64,000 bases of DNA from the NCBI GenBank assembly GCA_964058805.1, contig CAXKVV010002154.1:96001-160000 (forward strand). Reading direction: 5' to 3'. Both the position numbers and the translations under genes were made by a program. Below the pieces are notes generated by a model. The model worked only from the letters and a program-made list of their open reading frames with translations. It made no database searches and was not told the origin of the DNA. Positions 7,188 to 54,823 of the stretch are shown here, one piece after another (position 1 is the first letter of the stretch; each line of letters begins with the position of its first letter). This DNA comes from Schoenoplectus triqueter (lineage: Eukaryota > Streptophyta > Magnoliopsida > Poales > Cyperaceae).

Positions 7188-7435
7188 GATAGGTGATGTG
7201 GCCAAATGACAGACTACCACGTGGCACTATGGTGGGGCCACGTGACACTGTGGTGCGTGGTGCGGGCTATGACAGACTACCACGTGGCACGTTGCACTGT
7301 GGTGGGGCCACGTGGCACTGTGGTGCGTGGTGCGGGCTATGACAGACTACCACGTGGCACATGGCACTGTGGTGCGGGCTATAACCAAATGACAGACTAC
7401 CACATGGCACTGTGGTGGGGCCCACTTGTCAGGTG
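7188..7435 (+). repeat. Imperfect tandem repeat at a rearrangement junction
   Basis: Four copies of a unit beginning GACAGACTACCACGTGGCAC (7208, 7271, 7341, 7391; spacing 63, 70 and 50 bp), rich in CCACGTGGCAC. Near 7375 the array contains GCGGGCTATAACCAAAT, which matches the RT sequence at about 7163 just before the junction. A piece of pol has therefore been drawn into the array. Confidence 0.7.
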
Positions 7436-16818: not shown

Positions 16819-16820
16819 GT

Positions 16821-16832
16821 TGGTATCAGAGC
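16821..16832 (+). other. Initiator tRNA-Met primer binding site
   Basis: TGGTATCAGAGC, the standard plant initiator-Met primer site, 2 nt after the 5' LTR. Confidence 0.95.
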
Positions 16833-16844
16833 AGCAGGCGAAGG

Positions 16845-17474
16845 ATGGTGCGACGTAGTGCTCGTGTCAATCCTCCTGAAGGCAACCAGCAAGCCGATCG
16901 AGATATTGAGTTGAACGAGTTGAGGCAGCATGTGCAACAACTCCAAGAGCGTCTAGCGCGCATGGAGGCCGCTGGGAACAACCGCGATGATTCCTATCGT
17001 GGCTCAGATGGCGAAACTTATGGTGACGATGATGCCGAGTTCAACCCCTTCCACGACAACCACACCTTGGTGTCCAGTGATGAAGAGGCTCTCCATCAAA
17101 ATCACACCCGAAGGAACCAGCAATTTCGACGGGCTTTTGATCTAAAAGCGGATATTCCTGTGTACGAAGGGCGCATACAACCCGATGAGTTCATAGATTG
17201 GCTCAATACGGTTGAACGTGTCTTTGAATACCAAGATGTCCCTGAGGAAGAGAAGGTGAAGATTGTTGCCATCAAATTAAAGAAGCATGCATCTATTTGG
17301 TGGGAGCAGTTGAAGATGAAGCGAGCCCGTGAGGGTAAGCAAAAAATCAGAACATGGGAAAAGATGGTGAAAGAGTTACGAAAGAAGTTTCTGCCGGAAG
17401 GGTACTTGCAAGAGGCCTTTTTTCAACTTCATGGCTTTGTTCAAGGTGAAAAAAACTGTGGCAGATTACACTGA
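16845..17474 (+). pseudogene. CRM gag N-terminal part, frameshifted
   Basis: Starts at an ATG 12 nt after the primer site (MVRRSARVNPPEGN). It has an early helical, coiled-coil-like stretch (LNELRQHVQQLQERLARME) and the gag capsid region (FIDWLNTVERVFEYQ, KKHASIWWEQLK). At the A7 run 17449-17455 it goes out of frame with the rest of gag-pol and ends at 17474. Adding one A would restore the frame. The downstream frame is +1, so this is an indel rather than a -1 recoding site. Confidence 0.88.
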
Positions 17475-20376: not shown

Positions 20377-20927
20377 TTTACGAAACAGCAGCTCTCTGGA
20401 CAGATTCGTACGGGGCCAGTATTTTGGGCATAACTCTCTCATAAAGGCTCGGATTTGGGTGATTTAAATTTCTGTGATCAGATAATGAAATGGACTATCT
20501 TTTTTATGTTTTGAGTTTCTCCAGATTCCAGAGTCTTCTTGGTCAAAACCTCGTGTCAAGTGAGCGTGGTTACTGAGGAGCCAGCCAGCAATTAGTTTCT
20601 TGGAACTTGTCTTTTGAGTCTTTCTATGTTTTAATTATATTTGGGAATTAGCAGTAGTAGTTAATGTTGTTTTTATTGTGTTTTGATATTTGCAAAAATA
20701 GTTAAGGAGTTATTAATTAGTAGGAAGTTTCTAGAGTTGAGTTGTATGGCTATATAAAGCCTAATTTCTGAATGTAAACTCACTTGTTGAATTATTATGA
20801 AAAAGTTTATCTTGAGTTGAGTTTATCTCCTCTTTTATCCTGCTGTGAGTTGAGAGTATCCTCCAGTTGTGATTTTATAGTTGAACGTGTGCGTGTCCTT
20901 GGACGATTCATAGCTCGAACGCTATCA
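20265..20927 (+). repeat. 3' LTR of nested CRM
   Basis: 663 bp, TGATGG to GCTATCA, indistinguishable by eye from the 5' LTR. Its first 112 bases are coding. Confidence 0.95.
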
Positions 20928-20932
20928 GTCTC
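20928..20932. other. Target-site duplication, right copy (GTCTC)
   Basis: GTCTC immediately after the right LTR, matching 16151-16155. Confidence 0.93.
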
Positions 20933-23086
20933 CAATGCCCAAGAGCTCGGACAATTGCATAGAACTCTTTGTCATATGTAGTGTAGTTCTTACGTGAATC
21001 TGAAAGCTTTTCACTAAAGAAGGCAATAGGTCGACCTTCTTGATTGAGAACCGCACCAATGCCAACACCAGATGCATCACATTCAAGCTCAAAAATATTC
21101 TCAAAGTTGGGCAAAGTAAGAATTGGGGCTGCTGTCATCTTCTCCTTGATGAGTTGAAAGCTCTTTTCAGCTTCCTTTGTCCATTTGAATACTCCTCCTT
21201 TCAAGCACTCAGTGATTGGAGAGACAAGAGTGCTGAAATCTCGAATGAACCGGCAATAAAATGAGGCCAATCCATGAAAACTCCTCACATCGTGAATGTT
21301 GGTTGGTATTGGCCATGAAACAATTGCATCCACCTTAGAAGGATCAACATGAATACCCTCAGCTGAAACCACATAGCCTAGAAACACCAAGTTGCTGGTT
21401 AGAAACTCGCACTTCTTGAGGTTGATGTAGAGTTTCTGTTCAGCTAGCACTTCAAAGACTTGGCAAAGGTGTTCCAAATGCTCTTCTTTACCCGTGCTAT
21501 ACACGAGTATATCATCAAAATAGACCACCACAAATCTGCCAATAAAAGACTTAAACACCAAATTCATTATTCTCATAAAAGTACTAGGAGCATTAGAGAG
21601 TCCGAATGGCATCACCAACCACTCAAACAATCCATCACGGGTCTTAAATACCGTCTTCCATTCATCACCAGGCCTCATACGAATCTGATGGTACCCACTT
21701 CTAAGATCAATCTTTGAAAACACACTAGCACCATGGAGCTGATCTAGCATGTCATCTAGACGAGGAATAGGGAAGCGATACTTGATAGTAATCTTGTTGA
21801 CCGCTCTACTATCCACACACATGCGAAAAGAACCATCTTTCTTTGGCACAAGCAAGGCTGGAACTGCACAAGGACTCATGCTTTCACGCACCAAACCCTT
21901 TCTCAACAACTCATCTACTTGCCTCTGTAACTCGGCATTTTCTGTTGGGTTCATTCGGTAGGCTGCTTTGTTTGGCAAAACTGCACCAGGAACAAAATCT
22001 ATGCAGTGTTGCACACTCCTCATTGGAGGTAAACCTGCTGGAATTTCATCTGGAACAAGGTTCTGAAATTGTTCAAGTAAAGGTACCACTGGTCCAGGTA
22101 TTAGAGTACTTCTGTAACCCTTAACTTCTTTCACCACTAATGCAAAGGCTATTTGGGATTCTTCAAAAATTTCAGTAAATTCATATTTTAAGAGAATGAA
22201 ATTGCTATCCTTGAGGGCTGGTTTAGATTTCATTTCCATTCTAGAAGGACCCAAAGTAATCTTAGCACCATTCAGCTCAAAAGAATAAGTGTTTTTAAAA
22301 CCGTCATGGTGTACCTTTCTATCAAACTGCCAAGGCCTCCCCAAAAGTAAATGACAAGCATCCATAGGAACTACATCACACCATACCTCATCTCGGTACT
22401 TCTCACCAATAGAAAAATTTACCAAACAACGCTGGTCAACTTGCACACATTTACCCTTTTCCAACCAAGAGAGTTTGTACGGTTTTGGGTGCTTTTCAGT
22501 TTTAAGCGGCAACTTTTGTACCATAATTTCAGAAACAACATTCTCACAACTCCCGCTATCAATGATAACATCGCATACCTTCCCATGAGAGGTGCATCGT
22601 GTATTGAAGATATTGTTACGGAGTCACACATCATCTTGAACGGGACTGGAATTCAGCACACGCATAATCACCAACATCTCACCCGTATCTCCATAAATGA
22701 CATCCTCCTCATCTGCTGCCTCATCAAACACGGGTGGAGAATCAAAATCTGTTTGTTCCTCTTCTAGGGGTTCTTCAACAATGGTAAATACCCGCTGGTT
22801 TGGGCACTCGGACATGATGTGACCGTACCCTTTGCACCGATAGCATTGAACAGCTTTAGGGGTTGGTTTAGAGGGTCCTGCGGTTGCGGTTTTTGCTGAA
22901 AATTTGGCCACTGCACTTGATGTTGGTTTGGCTGATTGCGTACTGCTCCCATGACTTGTTGGATGGCCTCGATTGAGAACTCGGCTACCACCAAAGCTCG
23001 CTGTTTTTCTGACTTCTTTCTCCTTGAGTTGTTTTTCAACTTTTGTGGCAAGTTTAAACACATCATGATAAGAGATAAAGGGCTGT
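20933..23086 (-). pseudogene. CRM gag C-terminus, protease, RT, RNase H start (older copy)
   Basis: Minus-strand pol of the older CRM element upstream of the nested insertion. From 23086 downward: truncated gag C-terminus, CCHC knuckle, an in-frame TGA at 22624-22626 where the nested copy has Trp (DDVW), protease, RT with YFDDILVYS (near 21510), and RNase H up to the insertion at 20932. Apart from that stop the frame 20908-22524 is open. The sequence is very similar to the nested copy. It ends at 23086, fused to Tat RNase H. Confidence 0.88.
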
Positions 23087-25256
23087 ATATTATTTAAGTC
23101 GCATGATGGTAGGGGCAGAACACGGATATTCGCCGATCGAGAAGCATTGTTTAGCCTTAATCTTTGCGGTAAAGAAATTAAGGCATTACATGCTAGCCCA
23201 TAAAATCATTTTAATATCCAAGGTGGACCCCCTCAAATACCTGATGACTCGGCCAATGTTGACGGGTAGGCTGGCCAAATGGGCGATCATTCTTACTGAG
23301 TTTGACATCATCTACACACCGCAAAAGGCGATCAAGGGGCAGGCGCTGGCAGACTTCTTAGCTGCACATCCGATTCAAGATGACTCTCCATTAAAATGTG
23401 ACTTTCCCGACGAGGAAACTCTACATGTTGAAGAAGGAAATCCTATATGGGAGTTGTACTTTGATGGTGCCTCATCGATCAAGCCGATCGCAGGCCCGGG
23501 AATTCCAACTGTGCGAGCTGGCGCAGGACTAGTCTTCGTGACCCCGGAAGGCGGGATAATACGACATTCTCTAGCTTTAACCGAACCATGCACAAATAAT
23601 GAAGCAGAGTATGAGGCACTTATCGCCGGACTAGAGCTATCACTGGAGCTAGAAATCAAAGCTGTGCGCATCTTTGGGGATTCACAGTTGATAATAAATC
23701 AAATAATTGGCGAATACAAAGTCCTAAAGCTGGAGCTAATACAATATCACCAGAAGGCCATGGAATTAATGAAGAAAATCCCGTACGTGTCCATTGAGAA
23801 GGTCACGAGGGCTGTGAATGGTGAAGCAGATGCGTTGGCCAAACTCGCCAAGGAGCTGGGTGAACCAACAGAGCCGGAAATCCACATCATCGTCCGCAAT
23901 AGAAGGCCATTATCATTGTGTCAGACGACAAACAATGCAAATAATGAAGGTACTGGGCTAGAAAAGATGGAATGCCAAGAAACAATGATAACTGAAGAAG
24001 ACGATGATTGGAGACAACCGTTCATCGAATATTTCCGGCATGGCACCCTCCCTAAAGACAAAAGAATCGCTGATCAACTAAGAAAGCGGGTACTACGATA
24101 TGCGTATGTGGGCAATACGCTATACCGTAGGTCTTATGATCAACTATGGCTGAGATGCGTATCAGGGCCTGAAGCCGAGCAGGTTATGAAAGAAATTCAC
24201 TCCGGGCTATGCGGAGCACATCAGTCTGGGCCAAAAATGAAGTTAAAAATCAAGCGAATGGGGAATTATTGGCCCACGATGGTGGCTGATTGTGAAGAGC
24301 ACGCAAAGAAGTGCCGCATGTGCTAGATACATGGCCCTTTTATACATCAAGCGCCAAACCCGTTGCACCCCACAGTAGCATCCTGGCCATTTAATATGTG
24401 GGGCACAGACATAGTGGGGCCCATAGACCCTCCTAAGTCAAGAGGTCACCGGTTCATCTTGGCGGCAACGGATTACTTTACCAAATGGGCCGAAGCCATT
24501 CCACTTAAAGAAGTCAAAGCATCTGATGTGGTTAAGTTCTTCAAGACACACATCCTCTACCGATTCGGCACCCCACAACGAATAATATCTGATAACGGGA
24601 CGGCCTTCAAGATCTCTAAAGTCTATGCCCTGGCGGAGCAATTTAACATTGACTGGAGATTCTCATCCATTTATAACCCGAGAGCCAACGGCCTGGCCGA
24701 AGCCTTTAACAAAACCCTGATCAATATTATGAAAAAGACCGTGGACGGCAACCAACGAGACTGGGATAATCGTCTACAGGAGGCATTATGGGCTTATCGA
24801 ACCACGTACCGTACGCCTACGCAAGCTACCCCGTATTCTTTGGCTTTTGGGGTTGAAGCCGTTCTCCCTCTTGAGGTGGAATTACCGTCATTGCGGGTGG
24901 CTATGCAAAATGATATGACCATGGATGAATGCCAACAACTTAGATTGGACGAGTTGGATGCCATGGACGAGAAGAGATTAATAGCCCAGCAGAATCTTGA
25001 GATATATCAGGCAAAAATGGCAAGGGCTTATGACAAAATGGCGTGAGTCAGGGCATTTCAACAAGGGGAGCTTGTTCTTGTCCTTAAGAGGCCAATTATT
25101 GGCCGGCACATTGGCCCAAAATTTTCTCCGAATTGGGAAGGGCCATATGTAATTGAGAAGGTATACGGGGGCGGCGCATACCAACTCATAGACCATGAAG
25201 GTGAAAGGCCCATGCCACCGATTAATGGGCGATATCTGAAGAAGTACTACACATAG
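23087..25256 (+). pseudogene. Tat pol: RNase H, archaeal-like RNase H, integrase (copy B)
   Basis: Begins mid-RNase H just after the CRM remnant (GAEHGYSPIEKHCLALIFAV). A second RNase H of the archaeal-like type follows (ELYFDGASS at about 23455, TNNEAEYEALIAG, FGDSQLIINQ, NGEADALAKLA), the marker of the Tat lineage. Integrase follows: HHCC region (H ... H ... CRMC), DDE core (D in GTDIVGPID, D in ISDNGTAF, E in NGLAEAFNK) and C-terminal domain (GPYVIEKVYGGGAYQL). The natural stop is 25254-25256. Premature TAG at 24324 (Gln in copy D) and TGA at 25044 (Arg in copy D) kill it. RT is missing upstream. Confidence 0.88.
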
Positions 25257-27000
25257 CCCGGAGCGGGGCCGATCGAATAGTATTTATTGTAAATAAATAA
25301 GGAGGAAATAAGTGTTCGCTTACACACACGTGCACGAAACACAAACCCATGTCTAACCTCCACTTTTGCATAAAAATCTCAAAAACCTTACTTGCGCATC
25401 TGTAAATAGAATGCATCCAAAGATCTAAAACCACACAAATACATTTAGCCCTACAACAAAATAAACAAAATAGAATAAAAGATTTCAATGCCAAAACCAC
25501 GCGAGAATGTAAGGCGAGAGCCTTGGTGTTTGGGCTCATAATACAAATACCACTGGGTTTGTCCATTTGATACAGAATAAACACAAAAATGGGCAGGGTT
25601 TGCAGTTTGTCCCTCAAACTATCTGTTGCCCAATGACGAAAGTTGCTCATATTGGTCGCCTGCGGCGCAAGCCAAGGGATAGGTCGAGCAAATTGGTGGC
25701 TAGTGAATAGTCGCTTCCGAGGGCATATAAATAAATAACTCTCGTATTATTAGTAACATGTATCACTAATAACAAAAAAAAATCTGCTCTCTTCTAATAA
25801 AATAAAAGGATATCTAAGTAAAACAATAAAAACCTATTTTCCTTACTCATCAATCAAAAAAAAAATAATAAAAAAATAATAAAATCTTTTCAATAAGGGG
25901 TTGCCACCTTTGTCCCCGACACCACGAGTGTTATACAAAGCCAGGTTGGGTGCATTCATCCGTAAAAGCACCACACGCCCAAAGAAATGATGTGTCATAA
26001 TCCCACGGCGCATCATGGAGGGGTCAGATTAAGGGTTTATGCTTGTACCCGACATTTCATGTTAAACAAAGCGGCTCGCTTAAAGAAGTGACTTAGGTCA
26101 TGGAGAGCGGACCTACCCGATGAAAGCCTGTCTCGCGGGGATGCGTGATGGATGTTTGAGGGTAGCCAAAATATAAAAAACCAGGTTGGGTACATTCATC
26201 CGCAAAAGTACCACACGCCCAAGGAGGTGATCTGTTTCTAATCCCAAAATAGATCATGGAGGGGTCAGATTAAGGGTTTACGCTTTTGCCCGACATTCAG
26301 TGTCAAATAAAGTAATTCGCTTAAAGAAGTGACTCAGGTCATGGAAGCGGACCTACCCGATGAAAGCCTGTCTCGCAGGGATGCGTGATGGATGTTTGAG
26401 GGTAGGACCCCCACAAAACAAATTGAGTGGAGATGAGTGAATGTGAGTTTCCACTTTAGCACGCAACGGTGCATAAATGAGGGGAGAGTGGGTGAGCTTC
26501 CACAAATAAATGTCAACTAAATATACAAGGAGCATCCACAAAATGGTGTTATCAATTGCATCCATAATCCAATTGATACTGGTAAGTTTATCCATCAGTA
26601 ATAAAGGGATAAACGGGTTTATTCTGTACCCGGCCTAGGGGTCAATACAGACAGGTTCGGTATCCGTAAAATACCACGGTTACTTGAGTTCTGTATTGTA
26701 ATAAATAAGGAAAAACATGCATAGAATAAATGTAATAGGATGTTGTAAAATTTTCCTTTTATTATGTTAGACACTGCGAGAGAATGAAGCAGTTGTAATC
26801 GAGCGCTTTTACAAATAAGATTGGAGGTGCATAGCATGAAATCAATAAAATACTTCCTCGCGCTGCAGAGGAAGTGACGAAGGGATAACAATAAAGGCAA
26901 GCATCATCCACAACAAAGAGATCAAAGATAACAAGTGTCAAGGCATCCTATACCAAGTATAGCAAAAGAAAAGGAGAAAAGAAGAAATGAAAAGTACAAT
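25257..27000 (+). other. Non-coding 3' region between integrase and antisense PMD gene (copy B)
   Basis: About 1.7 kb shared with copy D (38817-40544) and copy E (54824-56555, inverted). It contains the 240-bp dimer listed next, a GGTAT ... ATACC hairpin near 26660, and the likely 3' flank of the PMD gene (AATAAA-type signals on the minus strand). No plausible coding frame. Confidence 0.7.
25941..26415 (+). repeat. 240-bp tandem dimer downstream of integrase
   Basis: Two units beginning CCAGGTTGGGT (25941 and 26181). Each contains TAGGTC ... GACCTA (26094-26099 with 26110-26115 in unit 1) nested next to CTACCC ... GGGTAG. Copies at 39499/39738 (period 239) and 55636/55876 (period 240, inverted) keep the dimer. 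Confidence 0.8.
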
Positions 27001-30000
27001 CTACGGGCCCAAAAAGCGGGACTCCAGCTCTAATAGCACAGTGCTAATGGTCTCCAGATAAGCATGGAGGGAGTGCCTATCCTCCTCTGAAGTCGCCTCG
27101 AAATCCAAGAACTGAGAGAAGGCACTATCCCGGGCACTCGAATGAATCTGCAGCTCCAGGAGACGTCCCGCCAGATGTCGAGAGAAGCCCTCTACTGACA
27201 ATCTGTGGTCCTCTAGCTCCTGCACGAGCAGTCGAGCGGGCCCACCACTGACTCCCATAGAGCGGAGAGTGGCACAAGAAGAGAGCCGCTGAAGATAGCG
27301 GAGTCGAGCAGCCTCCAAGTGCCTGCGCAGCTCATGGATCTCCAACTCGTGCTGGTATACGAGAGAGCTCGCATCCTGATAAGCCCCGAGCAGCTCCTCA
27401 CACCTCCTAGAAATGAAGGTACTCTCGAGACGAGGTGCAATGAGTAGAGCTGGCGCGATGGTATCCCGCATCAGCCTATACCAATCGAAGGAAAAGTCAT
27501 CGGGCAGGGACTCCAAGATCTCGAAATCTAGCGGATAGTCTCCGAAGAAGGTGTCTCGGAGTGCATCCGCCAGCGCGGCCAAGGCGAGCTTCACATCCCT
27601 CAATATAACATCTACAAATAAGATAAATGGGTTAGACAAGTTGTTATAATCAAAGAAGAAATAGAAGGAAGAGAAGATCTAACCTATCGCCTCGTCGCCT
27701 GAGACTGGCGGGACTGAATCAGGGATAGGGATGTCGGTCGCCTCAGGAGGACCCGCAGGTGCACCAGACCCGGCTACAAAATAAAATGAAAAGCATAAGT
27801 ATATGAAAAGTAAAGTACGGGCAAATGACAAAAGAAGTATAAGGTACCGGGAGAGGCATGAGGCTCGATGAGACCCTCACTAGCCGGGACCTCCGTCTCT
27901 GGGCTGTGGAATAGCTGCTCCACTAACCAATTCTCATCCAGCTCTGAGTCATAATCGACTGCAGCCTGCTCAGTCGAGTCCTCCACCCGACTAACCGATG
28001 AGACTATGCCATCTGTAGCCACGAAAGGCTGCCTGTCAGGAGATGAAGAGACATGAAATGGCCCTCCCTCGATCAAGAGTGGCTCGTCGCCTGCGGGCTC
28101 GACAGCCAATGGACTCCCCTGCTCGAAAGAAGCCTCCTCTGATCTAGTAAGAGTGAACACTGGCTCCAAAACCACGTCAAATGAGTCGCCATCTCCAGTG
28201 GGTACCAGTAAGATCGACGGTGAGGCAGGGCCGTCATGAAAGAAAGACTCTTAACGATGTGGAGATGCCATGTCATCGGCCTCAGGGCCTGTAAAATCTA
28301 CATGTAAGGATGAAAATACTGATGCATATTGGCAACTAAGTATTAAATGAAGCACACGAACCTGCGACGGCAAGGTCGGTGCAAAATCCTGAAAGGGCAG
28401 TGCTCGCCGGCGCCGGTGAATCTGCTATGATGTCATCTCGGGCTGCCTCTAAAGGAGATGTCCCGCGAGCTAGAAAATAAACCTTAATCAGAGCTGTAAA
28501 TGAAGTGCGCCCGAATAAGGATAGGCGAGTCAGTAAAGAAAATCACCCGGAATGGGAGAAGGGAAAGAAGATAGGGAAAGCGGCCGAGAAGCGCCATCTC
28601 GATCTCTCTCCACGGTGGCTGGAGCCGGTGGCTCGACAGGTGGCTGCGAATGAACGCCAACTACTCGTGGGCGAGGGACTGAGAACCCAGGCTCCGCATG
28701 ATCATACTCGTAAGCCAACTCTGAATCAAAAAGAGAATTGGTTGAGATGAAACGAGGCTTATCAAAAGGAAACAACCTAAAGGGATGATGAAGTGTACCT
28801 GTGAGAATAGTCCTAATAGAAGCACGAGAAAACCGGCTGTCCAAACCCTGGAAATCGACAGGCTCTGCGGCAATGGCCGGAAAAGGGCTGCGATCACGCG
28901 AGACGGTGCCATCTAATAGAGGCTGGTCATCTCGCGGACATGTACTCCGGACGACCACCGGAGGAGTATACGACTGGTAAGAGCGAATAGCCTCATAATA
29001 CCACTGCTGGTAACGCCTTGAGAAGGTGGAAGCCCTAGAAGTGGATACCATCTGGTAGCGAGTGCCTGTGCCTAGTCGGAAGAGGTGAGTGTAACACCAT
29101 CCGATCCCCTCCAAATCGGCTGCCAAAGATATAGGGCGGAGAAGAGGCGCTGGAATATCCTGATCCAAGCCAAACTGATGCGCGCATTGATGCGGCGAAT
29201 ATGGCTCGATGAACATATAATCGCCCAATCTGAGGGGAAGGAAGCCCTGACGAATACTGATCAGGTACTCCAAGTCGATAGGCCTAGCTCGGATGCTAGA
29301 AGAGTTAGAAGAGGGAACCCTGCCGTCAATCACCATCCTGTCGGCAACCCTAGCTGCCCCACGGGCCACTGATCTATCTCGAGAGAAGCGCAGATGGTCT
29401 CGGCTCCTAAAGAATCTATACCGAGCAGCCTCCGGAGTCAATGAAGCTGGCTGCACCCCAGCCAAGTCACTCAGTAAAGGTAGGCGGTCTCGCAGCGTAA
29501 CCGCCATGCCAGGATCATATGAACCAGACCAGTGTAAATGGAGTCATCCGCTAATCAGATGCCATGGAATCAGCTCCTGGCACTGTGAAGGACTACGGGA
29601 TGAAGTCAGACCGCGGAGACATCTGTAAATGTTGGCCAGTACAGGCACGGCCAAAGAAATCCTATCGCCACGCGCAATCAGGCTCGCCATGACGAACACT
29701 GAAGGCCGAATGGTGTATGCGGGGGAGCTAGGCAATAAGAAATAGCAGATCCACCAAGAGATGAAGGCGGTCAGATAAGTCTCCCGATCCACGTCATGTG
29801 AACACAGGGTATCCTGAGAAGGGATAGGGCCATCATAATGAATATCGTGCCGACCTGTACCAAATGGATCCCTGGTGGAAGCCAAGCCCGTAGGGCGAGT
29901 ATGGACCCGGTCGGTGAAATAGGCGATCCAATGCCTGAATGGGACTCCGGGATGCCCCCTCCGTAAATGATAATAAATCTCATAAGTCCTCTGCAAAGAA

Positions 30001-30704
30001 GGCAGAAATCGAGTGAAGTCTCCCGAGTCAGCGGGTGAGACCATGAACTCGTCATAGAAATGGTCAAAGATCGGCAGCCCGGTCAACTGCTGTATCTCCA
30101 GGAGGGTCGGAGTCAGCTCCCGGTCATCGATGAACAAAGTATTGGTGGAGTAGTTCCACCTCTCACAAAAGGCCCGTAGCCAAGGTGTGTCGATATGATA
30201 ATGGAACATCGACAAAAAGACCGAGTCATATATCCCGGCTCGCCTAAGCAGAGTCCTCTCCCGCATGAGCATATACCGGGTCCACTCTAGCTGATAGCCA
30301 TGGCACTCTAAGGGAGTGATGAAGGGAGCAGTGGTCCATCTGTGAGCCTCCCCGTCAATAATCTCCTTGCCCAGGATATGTGTCAAAGGAGCTGTAGAAG
30401 CAACGCCTAAGGGCTGAAGGGGCATGATGTCATGAGGCTGATCATCTCTAAAGAATAAACCGCCGCCTCGCGGGTAGACAGGAGTCACTCGGATGGCTGA
30501 GATGAGGGGAGTCCAGTCACTAGGATCCTCATAAAAAGAATGATAATGACTCAAGGGGCGACGCGGAATGGCGTCATGAGAAGAAACTACAATACCCGAA
30601 GAAGAGAAGACGTCATGAGAAATGAAGAGATAGATGATAAGGAACAATGCACCAAGACAAGCCTTTCGAGCGTTCAAGGCTCGTCTTGGTGGGTGGCTCT
30701 TTGT
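27001..30704 (-). pseudogene. Plant mobile domain (PMD) gene, antisense in Tat copy B
   Basis: Five exons by alignment with copy E: 30704-28547, 28469-28362, 28288-27848, 27773-27684, 27611-27001. All four introns (77, 73, 74 and 72 nt) are GT-AG and in phase 1. Exon 1 encodes a PMD-type (aminotransferase-like, PF10536-like) domain: LLRRAGIYDSVFLSMFHYH, then LFIDDRELTPTLLEIQQL. Exons 2-4 are acidic and Ser/Pro-rich. Exon 5 is helical and Leu/Arg-rich (HELRRHLEAARLRYLQRL), likely a coiled coil, ending SRFLGP. The frame opens at 30704 without an ATG; the first in-frame ATG is about 85 codons after the TTG at 30677, so the start is uncertain. Defects: TGA at 29546-29544 (Trp in copy E) and TAA at 28253-28251 in exon 3. 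PMD proteins of plants (MAIN/MAIL1) act in transposon silencing; the role here is unknown. Confidence 0.8.
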
Positions 30705-33390: not shown

Positions 33391-36300
33391 CCCGATTAAC
33401 AGCACAAACATAGAGAGACAATATAATAGACCAGAGAGAGATAGAGAGTGATAGATTAGAGAGATATAGCATAGAAAAGACAATTGGAAGAGAAGGATCG
33501 ATTGTGAGAAGGGAAGAAAGCCAAGAAACCGATTGATCTCAGTTTTAACTTGAGAACTCGGTTGATATATCTCCAATTATCCACTAGAAGGTCAGTCTTG
33601 AGCTTAATTTCAATTGGATTTGAAGTTTCAGTATTGAATTTTCGATGTAATTGATATATCGCATTTGAATCTTAGAGTAACAGTATCTTTGAGTTGAATT
33701 TTTCAATTTCTTTCTTTTAGTTTGCAAATTCATAACTTCTTTCCTCTAATATTTGATCTGAATTTCAGTTCTTGTTTTGTTTCTTGATTGGATTTCAAGT
33801 GAAAATTAGTAATTAAGCTGGTTAAATCGATTGATCTCGGTTAAAACCTGAGAACTCGATACCAGCAAAGGTCTTTGCTTTGATTCTTTGTTTGAACGCC
33901 AGATTCATCTCAGTTTGTGTTTGTATCACATGTATTCAAAGTCATAGTGTCGTTCAGAGTCGATTGATCTCAGTTTTAACTTGAGAACTCGACGGAATTA
34001 GTGATCTTCAATGTGTTATCGTGCCGTGTCAGATAAGTTGGGCTTCAAGTCAGAACCAGAAAGAGATTACATGTATAATTAAACACATTCGGTTTGCAAT
34101 TGTTGTTACAAAGCTTGTCAAGTGAACAATTAGCATTGAAAACAAGTTGATAGCTGGAATTTCGAGTGAATTGTAACTGGTACCGAACGGTACCATCACA
34201 TACTTGGCTTAGCAGAGTTGTAAGTCGATTTGAATGTTGTTAATGGTTTTCATGTATGTTAGCATATACAAACGATGCAAATCAAGCAGTCAATTGTCAG
34301 AAATATCGATTAATTTTGTTGAATTCGCAAAGATTGTTCTTTGATACCGAGCGGTACCAATCTGTTTCAAGTGGCGCTAGTAGGCAGTGTTATCTACCGT
34401 ATTAATTGTCAATCAGCCACCGTAGAAAGCTTTCTCGTGATGAGACGATGCTAAGAGAGTCATCTGATCGGCAAGAGGTGGTCTCAGTCGCCGGCACCAC
34501 CGTGGGCACGAATATTAAAGGATTTATAGATCGGAGAATCAAAGAAGCGCATCGGCGCGAATATTGGCGCCTCAACGCGAATATTGATGTATGTATACGA
34601 ATCTTGGAAGAGATCGAACGACCAAAATAAAGCACTGTTTTAAATAAAGATACAGAATGAATCTGGGCCTTACATCTCGTATGGTTTGATCTTGAAGCGA
34701 ATCTGGCGGCCCAAATAAGAACAGAGTTGAATAAAAGATGGGCGCTAATCTCAGCCAGATCCAAAGGCCCATATTAAACCCATTAGTTAAATAATAACAG
34801 AATATTAATGATATGGAGTAAATAAATCATTTGAAAATGTTCCTAAACTCCAAATTAACTCAAATTTGTTTCTAAAATTTCCTTATTTTTCATACTATTT
34901 TTCTATATAATAATATTTCAGTTTAAAAAATATAATCATGTTGAAACAATTTAAAAGCAAAAGATATTACATATATTGATATATTTGACTTAGCTTTGAC
35001 TTGTCATTTTAAATACTATAAAAATTCCTAAAATTCAAATAAAATCATAAATAATAATTGAATATATTTTAATGATTTTTTCTGGTGAATAATAATGACA
35101 AAAATAATATGCAATAATAAATAATGAGATTAGCTCTATTCTTTGATAAACAAAATAAATAATAATATCAAATAGATATCATGTTAATATTTTTCTGTAA
35201 AAAAAAATATAATAAAAATAGATAATACAAAAATATGCAAAAATATATACAACCATGGTAATAGATATTAAATGCATTTTCTTCTATAATAAAGAATGAT
35301 AAAGTTTTATAATAAAATGAATTACACTCCTTTTGTTATTTCTAAATAAATATACAATAAAAATATTTTTGATGAATAAAATACAATAAAAATAATAGTT
35401 TTAATAAAGGAAATAATGGATTTCATTCTTTGTAGCTATTTTCAAATAATAATAATAATAATAAAACAAAATCTTATATTTTTCTATAGATAATAAATAG
35501 AAATAATAAAAATATAATAAAAACTATCATAAATAGAATAGAATATTAATAATGATCTCTTTTTAGCTATTATAGATCCTAAAAATAAAAAAAATAAAAA
35601 ATATATAGCTAATTCATCTTTTGTTTTGTAAATAATTCCTACAAAATGAATAGTATTTCAAAATAACAAAATATGGTAATAAAATCCTATTACTTTGGCT
35701 ATTATAAATATTATAAAAATACAAATAAAATCATAGCCAGTTCATTTTCTATTATTTTGTAAGTGATTTTCTACAAAATAAATAGAGTTTAGAAATAATA
35801 AAAATAAAATTCTACTACTTTAGCTATTATAAAATCCCAAAAATATAAATAAAATTCTAGTTAATAGCTAACCCATTTCCTATTATTTTTGTAAATAATT
35901 TTCTACAGAAATAAATAGAGTTTAAAAATAAAAATAAATTTACCTTTATAATAGAAGATAATGATGAAAGGTATTGTGTAATAATCTTTCTACATTTTAG
36001 AGATGAACAAATATGCTCACACAAGGGGTGTAGAGCAACACAGTGATTTTGTGCACATAATGCAACATTTAGAGCGATTAGTCGAGACAAGAACAACTTG
36101 ACGAAGAATAACTGAGGCTTTCGATAGCAATATGAGGAGATATGTCGAGACAAGAACATCTTGACGCTTGATGAAGAATAACCAGGGCTGCGACATCAAC
36201 ATGGAGAGATATGTCGACTCTGAGGAAGAAGAACATTACGATGTCCGAGAGAAGTGACATCTTAATGACTCATTACCATGAACAAATGAATCATGACTAA

Positions 36301-36597
36301 ATACGCTCACACAAGGGGTGTAGGGCAACATAGTAATTTTGCACAAGTAATGCAACATTTAGAATGATTAGTCGGGATAAGAACATCTTGACGCTCGCTG
36401 AAGAATGACCAAGGTTGCGACATCAACATGAAGAGATATGTCGACTCCAAGAGATATGAACATTACGATATCCGAGAGAAGTGACATCTTAATGACTCGG
36501 TGTCATGAACAAGTAATTCATGACCATTTGAGCTAGCAAGACTGAACTCATCCGTCGATAAGTTTGTCTTCTGGTTCATCTCCCGAGATTGTGAGAT

Positions 36598-37235
36598 TGA
36601 ATCGTTCTGTAGTAGATTCATCCACAAAACAGTGAATGTGAACCGTTCTGTAGTAGGTTCCTTCACTAACAAATGCCTCAATGTTAAGCTGGCCCAGTGC
36701 TTCAGGTTTAACATTGTGTGCAATTGTGTTCCTAGGTTTATGAATCGGCTTAGTGCTTCGAATTCATGATCTAGAAGATTGGTGAGAAGAAACACGTGGG
36801 CCAAATCCACCCTTCTCCTGATTCACCAACCTCAAGATCAACCGGCTAAGTGCTTCGAGTTGTATTTTGTGCGATTGGTTGTTGACTAGTTAAGATTGAA
36901 CCGTTCTGTAGTAGGTTTATCTTCTAGATCAACTGAGGTTGAGTCGCTCTGTAGTAGACTCACCTCAAGCCCCTCTGAAGGGATTAACCTGATCTGTAGT
37001 AAGGTTATCTCTCGAGGTGGTATAGACTGAACCGATCTGTAGTAGGTTCGTCTTCCATAGGATCAACTGTGAACTGTTCTGAAGTAGGTTCATTTTCTAG
37101 ATGAACTGAGGTCGAGTCGTTCTGTAGTAGACTCACCTTGAACCCCTTCAAAGAGATTAATCTGATCTGTAGTAAGGTTACCTCTTAAAGCGGTAAAGAC
37201 TGAACCGATCTGTAGTAGGTTCGTCTTCCTTGGAA
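36598..37235 (+). repeat. Stem-loop array in LTR C
   Basis: At least a dozen hairpins. TGAATC/GATTCA around GTTCTGTAGTA (36598-36620). AGTGAA plus GAACC closed by GGTTC plus TTCACT (36631-36667). AATGTTAA/TTAACATT with loop GGCCCAGTGCTTC (about 36671-36710). TGAGG-T-TGAGTC closed by GACTCA-CCTCA (36934-36967). AGAC-T-GAACC closed by GGTTC-GTCT (37024-37053). The last group is repeated to 37235. A larger stem, TTGGTGA/TCACCAA enclosing GAGAAG/CTTCTC and GTGG/CCAC, lies at about 36778-36830. Confidence 0.8.
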
Positions 37236-37547
37236 TCGACCCCTTTTGTGAACCCAGACGACCACTTGACCATCATTTAACTATACTATTTGCTTCTCCC
37301 TTTCAAAGATCCAGAGGTGCCTCGAGGTTAGTAGCCCAGGGTAATTAACGGTGGGGGCTTGCGCCCACCGGAATCTACAAGAACTCACAATCACTAAAAC
37401 CCCCTGAATGTGCATCCAAATCTCTCTAAACGGCAGAATCAGCCGGCACTAAACAGATGCACGCTTGGGAGGGATCTCCGTGTCCTTCTTCCGCATCCCA
37501 TCGCCCAGCGGCGGTGCGGAGCGCGCGAAAAAGGGTCGCACAGGATC

Positions 37548-37565
37548 TGGCACGCCTGGTGGGAC
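37548..37565 (+). other. Primer binding site of Tat copy D
   Basis: TGGCACGCCTGGTGGGAC, 5 nt after LTR C; one base differs from the site at 3824. It marks LTR C as a 5' LTR for what follows, but only about 45 bases of leader remain. Confidence 0.65.
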
Positions 37566-37611
37566 TATCAAAATAAACTCATGGAATATAAGATTTTGGA
37601 TGCATATCTAG

Positions 37612-37685
37612 GGGGGATCTCCGTGTCCTTCTTCCGCATCCCATCGCCCAGCGGCGGTGCGGAGCGCGCGAAAAAGGGTCGCACA
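37612..37685 (+). repeat. Second copy of the LTR 3' terminus
   Basis: The last about 74 bases of the LTR repeated after the primer site, ending exactly at GTCGCACA and joined directly to integrase (CGTAGGTCTTATGATC). Probably the end of another element or a recombination product. Confidence 0.8.
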
Positions 37686-38816
37686 CGTAGGTCTTATGAT
37701 CAACTATGGCTGAGATGTGTATCAGGGCCTGAAGCCGAGCAGGTTATGAAAGAAATTCACTCCGGGCTATGTAGAGCACATCAGTCTGGGCCAAAAATGA
37801 AGTTAAAAATCAAACAAATGGGGTATTATTGGCCCACAATGGTGGCTGATTGTGAAGATCACGCAAGGAAGTGCCGCATGTGCCAGATACACGGCCCTTT
37901 TATACATCAAGCGCCAAGCCCGTTGCACCCCACAATAGCATCCTGGCCATTTAATATGTGGAGCACAGATATAGTGGGACCCATAGACCCTCCTACATCG
38001 AGAGGTCACCGGTTCATCTTGGCGGCAACGGATTACTTTACAAAATGGGCCGAAGCCGTTCCACTTAAAGAAGTTAAAGCATCCGATGTGGTTAAATTCT
38101 TTAAGACGCACATCCTTTACCGATTCGGCACCCCACAACGGATAATATCCGATAATGGGATGGCCTTCAAGAGCTCTAAAGTCTATGCCCTGGCGGAGCA
38201 ATTTAACATTGACTGGAGATTCTCGTCCATTTACAACCCAAGAGCCAACGGTTTGGCCAAAGCCTTTAACAAAACCCTAATCAATATCATGAAGAAGACC
38301 GTGGACGGCAACCAACGAGACTGGGATAATCGTCTACAGGAGGCATTATGGGCTTATCGGACCACGTACCGAACACCTACGCAAGCTACCCCGTATTCTC
38401 TGGCTTTTGGGGTTGAAGCCGTTCTCCCTCTCGAGGTGGAATTACCATCATTACGGGTGGCTATGCAAAATAATATGACCATGGATGAATGCCAACAACT
38501 CAGATTGGACGAATTGGATGCCATGGACGAAAAGAGACTGATAGCCCAGCAGAATCTTGAGATATATCAGGCAAAAATGGCAAGGGCTTATGATAAAATG
38601 GCGCGAGTCAGGGCATTTCAACAAGGAGAGCTTGTTCTTATCCTCAAGAGGCCGATCATTGGCCAGCACATCGGCCCAAAATTCTCTTCGAATTGGGAAG
38701 GGCCATATGTAATTGAGAAGGTATACGGAGGCGGCGCATACCAACTCATAGACCATGAAGGTGAAAGGCCCATGCCACCGATTAATGGATGATATCTGAA
38801 GAAGTACTACACATAG
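37686..38816 (+). pseudogene. Tat integrase, copy D
   Basis: Integrase from just before the zinc-binding region to the natural stop at 38814-38816. HHCC (CRMC), first D (STDIVGPID) and second D (ISDNGMAF) are present. The catalytic Glu codon is AAA at 38259-38261 (NGLAKAFNK; other copies NGLAEAFNK), so the DDE triad is broken. TGA at 38790 replaces an Arg codon. The reading frame continues upstream through the LTR terminus only by chance. Gag, protease, RT and both RNase H domains are deleted. Confidence 0.85.
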
Positions 38817-40544
38817 CCCAGAGCGGGGCCGACCGAGTAGTATTCATTGTAAATAAATAAGGAGGAAATAAGTGTTCGCTTACACACACGTGCACGAAAC
38901 ACAAACCCATGTCTAACCTCCACTTTTGCATAAAAATCCCAAAAAACCTTTCTTGTGCATTTGTAAATAGAATGCATCCAAAAATCCAAAACCACACAAA
39001 CACATTTAGCACTACAACAAAATAAAAAATAGAATAAGAGAATTCAATGCCAAAACCACGCGAGAATGTAAGGCGAGAACTTTGGTGTTTGGGCTCACAA
39101 TACAAATACCACTGGGTTTGTCCATTTGATACAGAATAAACACAAAAATGGGTAGGGTTTGCAGTTTGTCCCTCAAACTATCTGTTGCCCAATGACGAAA
39201 GTTGCTCATATTGGTCGCCCGCGGCGCAAGCCAAGGGATAGGTCGAGCAAATTGGTGGCTAGTAAATAGTCGCTTCCGAGGGCATGTAAATAAATAACTC
39301 TCGTACTATTAGTAACATGTATCACTAATAACAAAAAATCTACTCTCTTCTAATAAAATAAAAGGATATCTAAGTAAAACAATAAAAACCTATTTTCCTT
39401 ACTCATCAATTAAAAAATAAAAAAATAATAAAAATAATAAAATCTTTTCAATAAGGGGTTGCCACCTTTGTCCCCGACATCACGAGTGTTATACAAAGCC
39501 AGGTTGGGTGCATTCATCCGTAAAAGCACCACACGCCCAAAGAAATAACGTGTCATAATCCCACGGCGCATCATGGAGGGGTCAGACCAAGGGTTTACGC
39601 TTGTACCCGACATTTCATGTTAAACAAAGCGACTCGCTTAAAGAAGGGACTTAGGTCATGGAGAGCGGACCTACCCGATGAAAGCCTGTCTCGCAGGGAT
39701 GCGTGATGGATGTTTGAGGGTAGCAAAAATATAAAAACCAGGTTGGGTACATTCATCCGCAAAAGTACCACACGCCCAAGGAAGTGATCTATTTCAAATC
39801 CCAAAATAGGTTATGGAGGGGTCAGACTAAGGGTTTACGCTTTTACCCGACATTCAGTGTCAAATAAAGTAATTCGCTTAAAGAAGTGACTCAGGTCATG
39901 GAGAGTGAACCTACCCTATGAAAGCCTGTCTCGCAGGGATGCGTAATGGATGTTTGAGGGTAGGATCCCCACAAAACAAATTGAGTGGAGATGAGTGAAT
40001 GTGAGTTTCCACTTTAGCACGCAACGGTGCACAAATGAGGGGAGAATGGGTGAGCTTCCACAAATAAATATCAATCAAGTATACAAGGAACATCTACAAA
40101 ATGGTGTTGTCAATTACATCCATAATCCAATTGATACTGGTAAGTTTATCCATCAGTAATAAAGGGATAAACGGGTTTATTCTGTACCCGGCCTAGAGGT
40201 CAATACAGACAGGTTCGGTATCCACAAAATACCACGGTTACCTAAATTCTGTGTTGTAATAAATAAAAAGAAGCCATGTATAGAATAAGTGCAATAGGGT
40301 GCTGTGAAGTTTTCCCTTTTCTATTGTTGTATTTAGATGCTATATGAAAATAAAAGCAGTTGTATTAGGCACTTTTGCAATTAAGATTGAGTGTGTAAAA
40401 TGTAAAGAGTTTGTGAAATATTTCTCCATGCTGCGAAAGAAGAGGTGAGAAAATAGCAAAGAAGGCGATCAACATCCCCAACAATGAAAGAAAAGAGAAG
40501 TGAGGGAAGAAGAAAAAGAAAGCGAAATAAGGTAGCCGAGAGAT
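38817..40544 (+). other. Non-coding 3' region of copy D with 239-bp dimer
   Basis: Same content as 25257-27000: conserved stretch, dimer units at 39499 and 39738, GGATAAACGGG stretch near 40165. It runs into the PMD remnant; the counterpart of PMD exons 2-5 is deleted. Confidence 0.7.
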
Positions 40545-46519: not shown

Positions 46520-47180
46520 CGAGATCGTGGGATTGAATTATTCTGTAGTAGATTCATCCACAAAACAGTGAATGAGAACCGTTCTGTAGTAGGTTCCTTC
46601 ACTAACACATGCCTCAATGTTAAGCTGGCTTAGTGCTTCAGGTTTGACTTTGTGTGCAGTTGTGTTCCTAGGTTTATGAATCGGCTTAGTGCTTCGAATT
46701 CATGATCTAGAAGATCGGTGAGAAGAAACACGTGGGCCAAATCCACCCTTCTCCTGATTCACCAACCTCAAAATCAACCGGCTCAGTGCTTCGAGTTGTA
46801 TTTTGTGTGATTGGTTGTTGACTAGTTAAGATTGAACCGTTCTGTAGTAGGTTTATCTTCTAGATCAACTGAGGTTGAGTCGTTCTGTAGTAGACTCACC
46901 TCAAACCCCTATGAAGAGATTAATCTGATCTGTAGAAAGGTTATCTCTCGAGGCAATATAGACTGAACCGATCTGTAGTAGGTTCGTCTTTCATAGGATC
47001 AATTTTGAACCGTTCTGAAGTAGGTTCATTTTCTAGATTAACTGAGGCTGAGTTGTTCTGTAGTAGACTCACCTCAAACCCCTCCGAAGAGATTAATCTG
47101 ATCTGTAGTAAGGTTATCTCTCGAGGCGGTAAAGACTGAACCGATCTGTAGTAGGTTCGTCTTCCACGGGATCGACCTTT
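46520..47180 (+). repeat. Stem-loop array in LTR D
   Basis: Same array as in LTR C. For example TGAGG-T-TGAGTC loop GACTCA-CCTCA at 46870-46903, and GAACC/GGTTC hairpins near 46577 and 47138. Confidence 0.75.
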
Positions 47181-51112: not shown

Positions 51113-54100
51113 ACAAAGAGCCACCCACCAAGACGAGCCTTGAACGCTCGAAAGGCTTGTCTTGGTGCATTATTCCTTATCATTTGTCTCTTCACTTCTC
51201 ATGACGTTTTCTCTTCTTCGAGTATTGTAGTTTCTTCTCATGACGCCATTCCGCGTCGCCCCTTGAGTCACTACCATTCTTTTTATGAGGATCCTAGTGA
51301 TTGGACTCCTTTTGTCTCAGCCATCCGAGCGACTCCTGTCTACCCGCGAGGCGACGGTTTGTTCTTTAGAGATGATCAGCCTCATGACATCATGCCCCTT
51401 CAGCCCTTAGGCGTCGCTTCTACAGCTCCTTTGACACATCTCCTGGGCAAGGAGATTATTGACGGGGAGGCTCACAGATGGACCACTGCTCCCTTCATCA
51501 CTCCCTTAGAGTGTCATGGCTATCAGTTAGAGTGGACCCGATATGTGCTCATGCGGGAGGAGACTCTGCTCAGGCGAGCCGGGATATATGACTCGGTCTT
51601 CTTGTCGATGTTTCATTATCACATTGACACACCTTGGCTACGAGCCTTTTGTGAGAGGTGGAACTATTCCACCAATACTTTGTTCATCGATGACCGGGAG
51701 CTGACTCCGACCCTCCTGGAGGTACAGCAGTTGACTGGGCTGCCGATCTTTGGCCACTTCTATGACGAGTTCATGGTCTCACCTGCTGACTCGAGAGACT
51801 TCACTCGATTTCCGCCTTCTTTGCAGAGGACTTATGAGATTTATTATCATCTACGGAGGGGGCATCCCGGAGTCCCATTCAGGCATTGGATTGCTTATTT
51901 CACTGATCGGGTCCATACCCGTCCTACAGGCTTGGCTTCCACTAGAGATCCATTTGGTACAGGTCGGCTCGAGATTCATCATGACGGCCCTATCCCCTCT
52001 CAGGATGCACTGTGTTCACATGATGTGGATCGGGAGACTTATTTGACTGCTTTCATCTCTTGGTGGATCTGCTACTTCTTATTGCCTAGCTCCCCCGCAT
52101 ACACCATTCGGCCTTCGGTGTTCGTCATGGCGAGCCTAATCGCACGTGGCAACAGGATTTCTTTGGCCGTGCCTGTACTGGCCGACATTTATAGATGTCT
52201 TCGTGGTTTGACTTCATCCCGTAGTCCTTCACAGTGCCAGGAGTTGATTCCATGACATCTGATTAGTGGATGGCTCCATTTGCACTGGTCTGACTCATAT
52301 GACCCCAGCATGGCGGTTACGCTACGGGACCGCCTACCTTTATTGAGTGACTTGGCTGGGGTGCAGCCAGCTTCATTGACTCCGGAGGCTGCTCGGTATA
52401 GATTCTTCAGGAGCCGGGACCACTTACGTTTCTCTCGAGATAGGTCAGTGGCCCGTGGGGCAGCTAGGGTTGCCGACAGGATGGTGATTGGCAGTAGGGT
52501 TCCTTCTTCTGACATCTCTAGCATCCGAGCCAGGCCTATCGATTTGGAGTACCTTATCAGTATCCGTCAGGGCTTTCTTCCCCTCAGATTGGGTGATTAT
52601 ATGTTCATTGAGCCTTATTCGCCACATCGATGCACACATCAGTTCGGCATGGATCAGGACATTCCAGCGCCTCTTCTCTGCCCTATATCTTTGGCAGCCG
52701 ATTTGGAGGGGATCGGATGGTGTTACACTCACCTCTTCCGACTAGGCACAGGCACTCGTTACCAGATGGTATCCACTTCTAGGGCTTCTACCTTCTCGAG
52801 GCGTTATCAGCAGTGGTATTACGAGGCCATTCGCTCTTACCAGTCGTATACTCCTCTGGTGGTCGTCCGAAGTACATGTCCACGAGATGGCCAGCCTCTA
52901 TTGGACGGTACTGTCTCACGTGATCGCAGCCCTTTCCCGGCCATTGCCGTAGAGCCTGTCGATTTTCAGGGTTTAGACAGCCGGTTTTCTCGTGCTTCTG
53001 CTAGGACTATTCTCACAGGTACACCTCATCATCCTTTTAGGTTATTTCCCTTTGATAAGCCTCGTCTCATCTCAATCAATTCTCTTTTGATTCAGAGCTT
53101 GCTTATGAGTATGATCATGCGGAGCCCGGGTTCTCAGTCCCTCGCCCACGAGTTGTTGGCGTTCATTCTCAGCCACCTGTCGAGCCACCGGCTTCAGCCG
53201 CCGTGGGGAGAGATCGAGATGGCGCTTCTCGGCTGCCTTCCCCATCTTCTTTCCCTTCTCCCATTTCGGGTGATTTTCTTTACTGACTTGCCTATCCTTA
53301 TTCGGGCACGCTTTATTTATAGCTCTGATTAGGGTTTATTTTCCAGCTCGCGGGACATCTCCTTTAGAGGCAGCTCGAGATGACATCATAGCAGATTCAC
53401 CGGCGCCGGCGAGCACTGTTCTCTCAGGATTTTGCACCGACCTTGTCGTCGCAGGTTCGTGTGCATCATTTAATACTTAGTTGCCAGTATGCACCAGTAT
53501 TTTCATCCTTACATGTAGATTTTACAGGCCTTGAGGCTGATGACATGGCGTCTCCACATCGTTCGGAGTCTTTCTTTCATGACGGTCCTGCCTCACCGTC
53601 GATCTTGCTAGTACCCATTGGAGATGGTGACTCATTCGATGTGGTTTTGGGGCCGGTACTCACTCTTGCGAGACCAGAGGAGGCTTCTTTCGAGCAGGGG
53701 AGTCCATTGGCTGTCGAGCCCGTAGGTGATGAGCCATTATTGATCGAGGGAGGGCCATCTCATGTCTCTTCATCTCCTGACAGGCAGCCTCTCGTGGCTA
53801 CAGATGGTGTAGTCTCATCTGAGCTCACAGATAGTCGGGTAGAGGACTCGACTGAGCAGGTTATAGTTGATTATGAATCTGAGCTGGATGAGAGTTGGCT
53901 AGTGGAGCAGCTATTCAACAGCCCAGAGACGGAGGTCCCGACTAGTGAGGGTCTCACCGAGCCTCATGCTTCTCCCGGTACCTTATACTTCCTTTGTCAT
54001 TTGCTCGTATTTTACTTTTCCATGTACTTATGCCTTTCATTTTATTTTGTAGCTGGGTCTGGTGCACCTGCGGGTCCTCCTAAGGCGACCGATGTCCCTA

Positions 54101-54823
54101 TCCCTGATTCAGTCCCGCCGGTCTTAGGCGACGAGGCGATAGGTTAGATTTTCTCTTCTTTCTATTTATTCTTTGATTATAACAATTTGTCTGACCCATT
54201 TACTTTGTTGCAGATGTTTCACTGGGGGATGTGAGGCTCGCCTTGGCCGAGCTGGCGGATGCACTTCGGGACACTTTCTTCGGAGACTATCGCTAGATTT
54301 TGAGATTTTAGAGTCCCTGCCCGATGGCTTCTCTTTCGATTGGTATGGGCTGATGCGGGATACCATCGCGCCAGCTCTACTCGTTGCGCCTCATCTTGAG
54401 AGTACCTTCATTTCTAGGAGGTGTGAGGAGCTACTCGGGGCTTACCAGGATGCGAGCTCTCTCGTGTATCAGTACGAGTTAGAGATCCATGAGCTGCGTA
54501 GGCATTTGGAGGCCGCTCAACTCCGCTATCTTCAGCGGCTTTCTTCTTGTGCCACTCTCCGCTCCATGGGAGTCAGTGGCGGGCCCGCTCGACTGCTCGT
54601 GCAGGAGCTAGAGGACCATAGATTGTCAGTAGAGGGCTTCTCTCGACATCTGACGGGACGTCTCCCGGAGCTGCAGATTCATTCGAGTGCCCGGGATAGT
54701 GCCTTCTCTCCGTTCTTGGATTTTGAGGCGGCCTCAGAGGAGGATAGGCACTCCCTCCATGCTCATTTGGAGACCATCAGTACCGTGTTATTAGAGCTGG
54801 AGTCCCGCTTTTTGGGCCCGTAG
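51113..54823 (+). pseudogene. Plant mobile domain (PMD) gene, antisense in Tat copy E
   Basis: Exons 51113-53269, 53347-53454, 53528-53977, 54053-54142, 54214-54823. Introns of 77, 73, 75 and 71 nt are all GT-AG and phase 1, at the positions seen in copy B. The PMD-type domain spans about 51560-52330 (LLRRAGIYDSVFLSM; DDRELTPTLLEVQQLTGLPI). The C-terminal exon is Leu/Arg-rich and probably forms a coiled coil. The frame follows a TAA at 51110 and has no early ATG; the first in-frame ATG is 51392, so a non-AUG start or an unseen upstream exon is possible. Defects: TGA at 52253 (Trp in copy B), loss of one T near 53085, loss of one C near 54291. Copies B and E each repair the other's Trp-to-stop change, so the ancestral exon 1 was one open frame. 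Confidence 0.8.

Follow-up and report, generated by a model that had tools for sequence, protein, structure and literature searches.

Constant-loop hairpins with compensatory stems arrayed in the long terminal repeats of a probable Tat-type retrotransposon of Schoenoplectus triqueter

The host element and its long terminal repeats

In the window, by which we mean the whole 64,000-nt stretch of Schoenoplectus triqueter DNA analysed here, four long terminal repeat (LTR) sequences carry a row of small hairpins. LTR A ends at 3818 and LTR B, whose array is described most closely below, at 37542; a primer-binding-site-like stretch follows both and a gag-like frame stands behind LTR A, so that the loops as written lie on the sense strand. 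At 23103-24323 the domain order is RT_RNaseH, RVT_3 and Integrase_H2C2, i.e., a second RNase H before the integrase, and the integrase stretch nearby is 92% identical to the integrase behind the array LTR. In the excerpt of PMC6317226 on these elements, a second RNase H domain lying after the first and before the integrase marks the Ogre/Retand type of Tat element, and an extra ORF with a plant mobile domain is given for 57% of Ogre elements. Here this domain (PF10536) was found antisense to pol, above the cut-off at 51140-52252 and below it at 52280-53329. Judged from the integrase, from the two RNase H domains in Ogre/Retand order and from the antisense plant mobile domain ORF, the elements would belong to the Tat clade (Ty3/gypsy), near Ogre, and are probably Ogre-like; the sequence-only reading that preceded this analysis spoke of a Tat LTR. 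The closest named relatives of gag, from pineapple, align with 31-37% of the query at 50-54% identity, and metagenome proteins make up most of the 53 matches.

Several other features of the window deserve mention. ORFs with the plant mobile domain lie antisense to pol in two element copies, at 27001-30677 (-) and 51140-54823 (+), and in three element copies pol is followed by a tandem pair of a 240-bp unit (25932-26405, 39490-39963 and 55420-55894). Element B is without most of gag-pol, its LTR end and leader running directly into integrase sequence (37410-38792). Rearranged and partly inverted pieces of a second Ty3/gypsy element occupy 14573-22524; this element has a reverse transcriptase, a zinc knuckle and an SH3 domain of the Tf2 type. 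A 70-bp tandem repeat rich in CACGTGGCAC is found at 7218-7379.

Candidates for the transcription start are a TATA-like stretch near 35945, with A or G at its second position, and a weaker one near 37279, neither of them strictly conserved. TATA boxes are central in plant LTRs according to the excerpt of PMC11656987, a position that would place the array downstream of the start. All 27 AATAAA motifs of 34800-37545 fall in the AT-rich part before 35940, and none was found between the array and the LTR end. ATG is not clearly depleted, with 9 in 36480-37240 (shuffled 12.8, sd 2.7) and 19 in 36000-36480 (shuffled 16.0). Wherever U3, R and U5 lie, full-length genomic RNA carries the LTR stretch at one or both ends.

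Composition of the hairpin array

A covariance model located ten hairpins of one class (class 1) at 36593-37227, a weak eleventh at 36538, and 37 matches in the window altogether; 27 hairpins served as its input, including five from the window, which match by construction. Beyond the four LTR arrays no match was obtained elsewhere in the window up to E = 10. It had been claimed from the letters that hairpins stand side by side in the LTR and recur in LTR A, in an inverted fragment and in LTR D, and all of this is borne out. The earlier count of "twelve or so" holds once the other classes in between (36679, 36740, 36784, 36839) are included, and is too high for class 1. The features, with the evidence for each in brackets, are as follows.

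3002-3461 (+): array of LTR A, five matches and a weak one at 3041 (covariance model)
3824-3842 (+): primer-binding-site-like stretch after LTR A (assigned from sequence and position)
9764-10398 (-): array of the inverted LTR piece, nine matches (covariance model)
36502-36524 (+): hairpin GTCATGAA / CAAGTAA loop / TTCATGAC, upstream of the array (sequence, copy alignment, hairpin listing)
36538-36570 (+): diverged member of the class-1 type, with 12-nt loop CATCCGTCGATA, outer stem, bulged T and 5-bp inner stem (weak covariance-model match, 15.2 bits; pair 36542-36566 changed on both sides in 3 copies)
36593-36624 (+): class-1 hairpin 1 (covariance model; pair 36602-36616 T-A in 51 and C-G in 7 of 60 copies)
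36634-36665 (+): class-1 hairpin 2 (covariance model; pair 36643-36657 C-G in 55, T-G in 3 and T-A in 2 of 60 copies)
36679-36716 (+): class-2 hairpin, loop core GGCNNAGTGCTTC (folding, copies)
36740-36767 (+): class-2 hairpin (pair 36747-36759 G-C in 31 and C-G in 13 of 60 copies, 46 of 60 being paired)
36784-36817 (+): long-loop hairpin GAGAAG/CTTCTC (both-sides changes at pairs 36784-36817 and 36788-36813)
36839-36862 (+): class-2 hairpin (folding; core kept in copies; no both-sides change)
36892-36923 (+): class-1 hairpin 3 (covariance model; pair 36902-36914 C-G in 49 and T-A in 5 of 59 copies)
36935-36966 (+): class-1 hairpin 4 (covariance model; pair 36935-36966 G-C in 43 and A-T in 15 of 59)
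36980-37011 (+): class-1 hairpin 5 (covariance model; pair 36986-37006 A-T in 45, G-C in 11 and G-T in 3 of 59)
37023-37227 (+): class-1 hairpins 6-10, at 37023, 37065, 37108, 37153 and 37196 (covariance model)
37256-37542 (+): conserved LTR 3' end after the array, terminating in GGGTCGCACA (copy alignment, self-comparison)
46529-47163 (+): array of LTR D, ten matches, with a weak one at 46474 (covariance model)

A typical class-1 module consists of an outer stem of about five pairs, a 5' bulged T or C, a 5-bp inner stem and an 11-nt loop, G[T/A]TCTGTAGTA. The second outer stem after a one-base bulge, described earlier from the letters, is thus present, and mostly absent in some hairpins, e.g., at 37065. 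Loop positions G1, T3 and T5 and the closing GTA are invariant, and these bases could oppose one another as G.A, N.U and U.G, which would leave a tip of five or six bases. Interspersed with class 1 are the class-2 hairpins, whose loop core is GGCNNAGTGCTTC, near 36679, 36740 and 36839. A 173-bp unit of four hairpins is duplicated at 36897-37229. Over the 82-Mb assembly, GNTCWGWAGTARG was counted 1006 times and the reversed control 56 times.

Copy searches in the genome returned at least 53 and at least 70 matches (40 of 660 and 40 of 674 candidates scored), and 63 regions were found with 77 to 97% identity to the window over 533 nt; the 60-copy set used below consists of these regions minus L072 and identical rows. 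By a strict loop rule the LTR copies hold from 2 (a cut copy) to 18 hairpins, counts that exclude L001, L002, L027 and L031, which are off target or belong to the window itself, as well as L032-L061, whose locations coincide with those of L062-L073, and the arrays grow by the 173-bp unit. The 12-nt loops GATCTGTTAGTA and GATCTGTTTGTA are commoner in divergent copies; the former, in 49 of 557 hairpins, is without TGTA and still stem-closed. No exact match was obtained in the viral-contig and genome-contig collections, both of which are without plant genomes.

Fixed loops, changing stems and retained pairing

Among the first five hairpins of the window the loop is 94% and the bulge 100% identical, while identity amounts to 58 and 54% in the inner arms, 54 and 48% in the outer arms, and 27 and 24% in the flanks. 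The 11-nt loop is therefore almost fixed, as first noticed, and the accompanying statement that the stems "differ completely" proves too strong, since the inner stems at these identities are related by compensatory paired changes and are not unrelated. Where loops were located by their sequence alone, standard pairs occupied inner-stem positions 1-5 in 495, 502, 501, 500 and 493 of 511 cases. In 135 distinct hairpins the inner arms pair at 95.7% of positions, versus 78.0% when re-dealt (maximum 80.9% of 500), and the outer arms at 69.6% versus 62.3% (maximum 66.5%), the 11 of 511 loops with fewer than four inner pairs having been left out of the outer-stem counts beforehand.

Changes on both sides of a pair were seen within the genome at two levels. 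In 27 distinct hairpins, chosen to differ and preselected for at least 4 of 5 inner pairs, they affect 10 of 10 pairs, with 47 cells against a shuffled mean of 18.2 (0 of 500 as high), and the score of 0.448 drops to 0.11-0.18 when the partner is slid. In orthologous hairpins of the 60 LTR copies, two-sided changes in at least two copies affect 12 of 107 pairs and touch 9 of 11 hairpins (0-4 pairs when slid). Among them are a class-2 swap from G-C to C-G (31 and 13 copies) and, in hairpin 1, the replacement of T-A by C-G (51 and 7 copies); one of the twelve, 36682-36713, is paired in just 32 of 60 copies. Of the 386 changed cells in 18 divergent copies, 269 remain paired (null mean 0.48, maximum 0.55 in 1000). 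All such counts are to be read with the kinship of the copies in mind, which makes cells non-independent events and is left in by the shuffles.

A covariation screen of the R-scape kind had been proposed as a check. Our own version, an all-pairs G-test with a tree-based null over the 60 copies, yielded no significant pair, the best score (38.5) falling below all 20 null maxima (44.3-68.7); this test has little power because most changes are single clade-level events. Pairing was kept in 40 of 51 changes on branches leading to at least three copies (null mean 0.68, reached in 0 of 1000); for younger branches the count is 149 of 271 (null 0.51, again with 0 of 1000 as high). Such a pattern would be expected of a structure that selection maintains while a lineage is active and that decays once copies have inserted. 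Per-column rates on the deeper branches are 0.36 for stems, 0.33 for class-1 loops and 0.50 for linkers, with one hairpin misplaced by a base. Missing covariation across copies, or stems drifting freely in other copies, had been named as what would speak against selection. In the targeted tests paired changes lie well above controls and are kept on shared branches, more weakly on young ones, which supports the selection on structure first proposed from the letters.

Folding adds a further view. The stretch 36580-37245 gives z-scores of -5.9 as plus-strand RNA, -3.2 as minus-strand RNA and -4.9 as DNA, with 0 of 20 shuffles as stable in each case; in 120-nt windows the z-scores are modest and alike on both strands. 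Lone hairpins are weak (-4.8 to -15.7 kcal/mol). Plus-strand RNA folds better than minus-strand RNA in 9 of 10 class-1 hairpins, with one tie, and for the diverged hairpin at 36538 the minus strand folds better. Simple hairpins of at least 6 bp number 10 in 36460-37250, against a shuffled mean of 6.2 and a maximum of 10 in 20, and because this count lies within the shuffles, what goes beyond chance in the window is that the loop is shared and the changes are paired, not how many stems there are. In each of seven other loci tested, the count was above the shuffled maximum.

Strand preference and readings of the array

Which molecule carries the structure had been left as "RNA or extruded DNA". 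On the deeper branches (at least three copies), changes from Watson-Crick pairs led to G.U 20 times and to A.C 3 times (null 18.7 and 8.0), 0.000 of 1000 nulls being as low for A.C, so that against the re-dealt null A.C is depleted while G.U is not enriched. A threshold of five copies for the deeper class gives 15 G.U and 3 A.C (null 13.8 and 6.1, P 0.012), and one of two copies gives 33 and 11 (null 31.1 and 17.4); young branches have 111 G.U and 73 A.C. Since the wobbles on deeper branches are G.U rather than A.C, sense RNA is favoured over extruded DNA, with a path of change through G.U on the sense strand. Counted by stem type, those in at least five loci comprise 5 G.U and 0 A.C and single-locus types 22 and 7, but the types in 2-4 loci (10 and 13) do not exhibit the strand bias.

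The same wobbles bear on a reading at the DNA level, which we hold to be unlikely, namely that the array is an enhancer in U3 upstream of the core promoter, its constant core being a transcription-factor site and its arms either aiding cruciform extrusion or mere by-products. The array would stand directly upstream of the promoter if the weak TATA-like stretch near 37279 has this role, its DNA folds beyond the shuffles (z -4.9), and plant LTR elements are known to carry repeated enhancers in U3. A factor dimer, however, would fix the arms, which here vary with pairing alone kept, and selection on double-stranded DNA would not deplete A.C while sparing G.U.

Template switching, in which DNA or reverse-transcriptase synthesis copies one arm from the other, could make stems perfect without functional selection; the excerpt of PMC8794818 describes it as making and maintaining hairpins, and the mechanism can keep the loop. 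Direct double changes to a new Watson-Crick pair are in fact in excess, with 5 versus 0.5 on deeper and 11 versus 3.6 on young branches. We nevertheless judge this explanation distinctly unlikely, as it accounts neither for loops 94% identical between hairpins with dissimilar flanks nor for the fixed bulge, and predicts no strand preference, against the 3 A.C (null 8.0) and 20 G.U (18.7) observed.

UGUA is the motif of CFIm, and the TGTA within the 11-nt loop might recruit cleavage factor I in the 3' LTR as an upstream polyadenylation enhancer, where auxiliary signals could be needed since no AATAAA lies from the array to the LTR end. This seems very improbable to us, because the class-2 loops and the 12-nt loop GATCTGTTAGTA are without TGTA and the latter is stem-kept all the same; a PUF/CFIm reading of the loops is disfavoured on these TGTA-less loops. 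That the array is an ordinary duplicated repeat, functionless and paired by inheritance, is already disfavoured and to our minds just as improbable; this would suit the growth by 173-bp units, the negative all-pairs test and a raw hairpin number within shuffles, but not the gradient of identity from loop to stem to flank nor the pairing kept on shared branches.

The explanation that we prefer, and to which we would give an even chance, is that the array forms an RNA element on the sense strand of a Tat-type LTR retrotransposon, with its constant-loop stem-loops docking a putative partner. The array would be transcribed and folded, each hairpin offering that partner a loop that sits five base pairs above a bulged pyrimidine on the 5' side; the stems would need pairing alone and evolve by compensation, and hairpin units would be duplicated or lost, tuning the number of sites. 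Many repeats of a loop set at a fixed distance from a bulge, with stems free to vary, have the look of protein-binding hairpins, and by this analogy a multivalent docking platform is suggested. The likeliest partner would be a protein acting on genomic RNA. Gag would come first, for packaging or assembly in the manner of dispersed packaging signals, and second a host RNA-binding protein serving export, stability or 3' end formation. The 9-nt loop core has no complement in the window outside the LTR arrays, which points to a protein as partner and away from an internal RNA. The loop as a kissing partner was considered and set aside, the plus-strand complement of the 9-mer being confined to the inverted LTR piece; the 8-mer ACTACAGA, a loop complement, occurs also at 32226 and, on the minus strand, at 49256. 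Only tentatively do we go further and suggest a copy-number-variable array of sites with identical loops and re-written stems that gathers many copies of one protein on genomic RNA. Such a docking array may be a cis element new for LTR retrotransposons.

Comparable designs are known elsewhere. In the iron-responsive element and similar protein-binding hairpins, a bulged base lies about 5 bp below a conserved loop, and the paired stem is variable. The array is like them in the placing of its conserved loop above the bulge and in its variable stem, and unlike the iron-responsive element in its U/C bulge, its 11-nt loop, its up to 18 repeats and its lack of an Rfam match (none at gathering score, and nothing related up to E = 10 in 36000-37560). 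Packaging signals of MS2, in the excerpt of PMC6281560, have in common a motif in the apical loop and a bulged A on the 5' side, and the dispersed signals of MS2 and other RNA viruses described there are likewise many stem-loops with the loop and 5' bulge motif in common and the rest of the stem variable. Several stem-loops with a common loop and bulge motif are also what we found; unlike those signals, they stand head-to-tail in a plant retrotransposon LTR and have an 11-12-nt loop. The ENE triple-helix element of plant LTR retrotransposons, e.g., Evade, is another selected structure in element RNA; as excerpted in PMC12501189 it is one stem with U-rich internal loops, whereas the array is a row of hairpins without U tracts in its loops and, again, without an Rfam match. 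The cis-acting packaging and replication regions of Ty1 and Ty3 are likewise terminal RNA parts needed in cis, and the excerpt of PMC4974528 describes no repeated constant-loop hairpins in them. Variable tandem repeats occur in the same element clade in the 3' UTR of the Tat lineage; in the excerpt of PMC10794571 these are sequence repeats outside the LTR, whereas the array keeps pairing and not stem sequence. Among the matches listed from the open-access literature none is such an LTR feature, and the early remark that none had been described is not contradicted.

Few cases of selected RNA structure are known in plant LTR retrotransposons (ENE), and the array would offer a handle on how their RNA is marked for packaging, export or stability. 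Its natural series of 4 to 18 sites would suit tests of multivalent binding, and the coexistence of dead and shared lineages within one genome makes selection on structure testable inside a repeat family.

Other hairpins occur upstream of the array. At 35937-36010, TTCACC ... GGTGAA closes an AT-rich loop, and its counterpart in other copies (L023, L074 and L070) reads TTCATT ... ATGAA, a further paired change. The hairpin at 36150-36180, with loop CAAGAACA, has the stem GTCGAGA/TCTTGAC in the window, GTCAAGA/TCTTGAC in L064 and GTTAGGA/TCCTAAC in L079, the loop remaining unchanged and the stem being altered on both sides. In divergent copies (L081:2600-2900; L065 and L068) a further group of hairpins, with AATCGTTATAACGATT-like palindromes, lies upstream of the array, and one such hairpin has an 18-bp stem.
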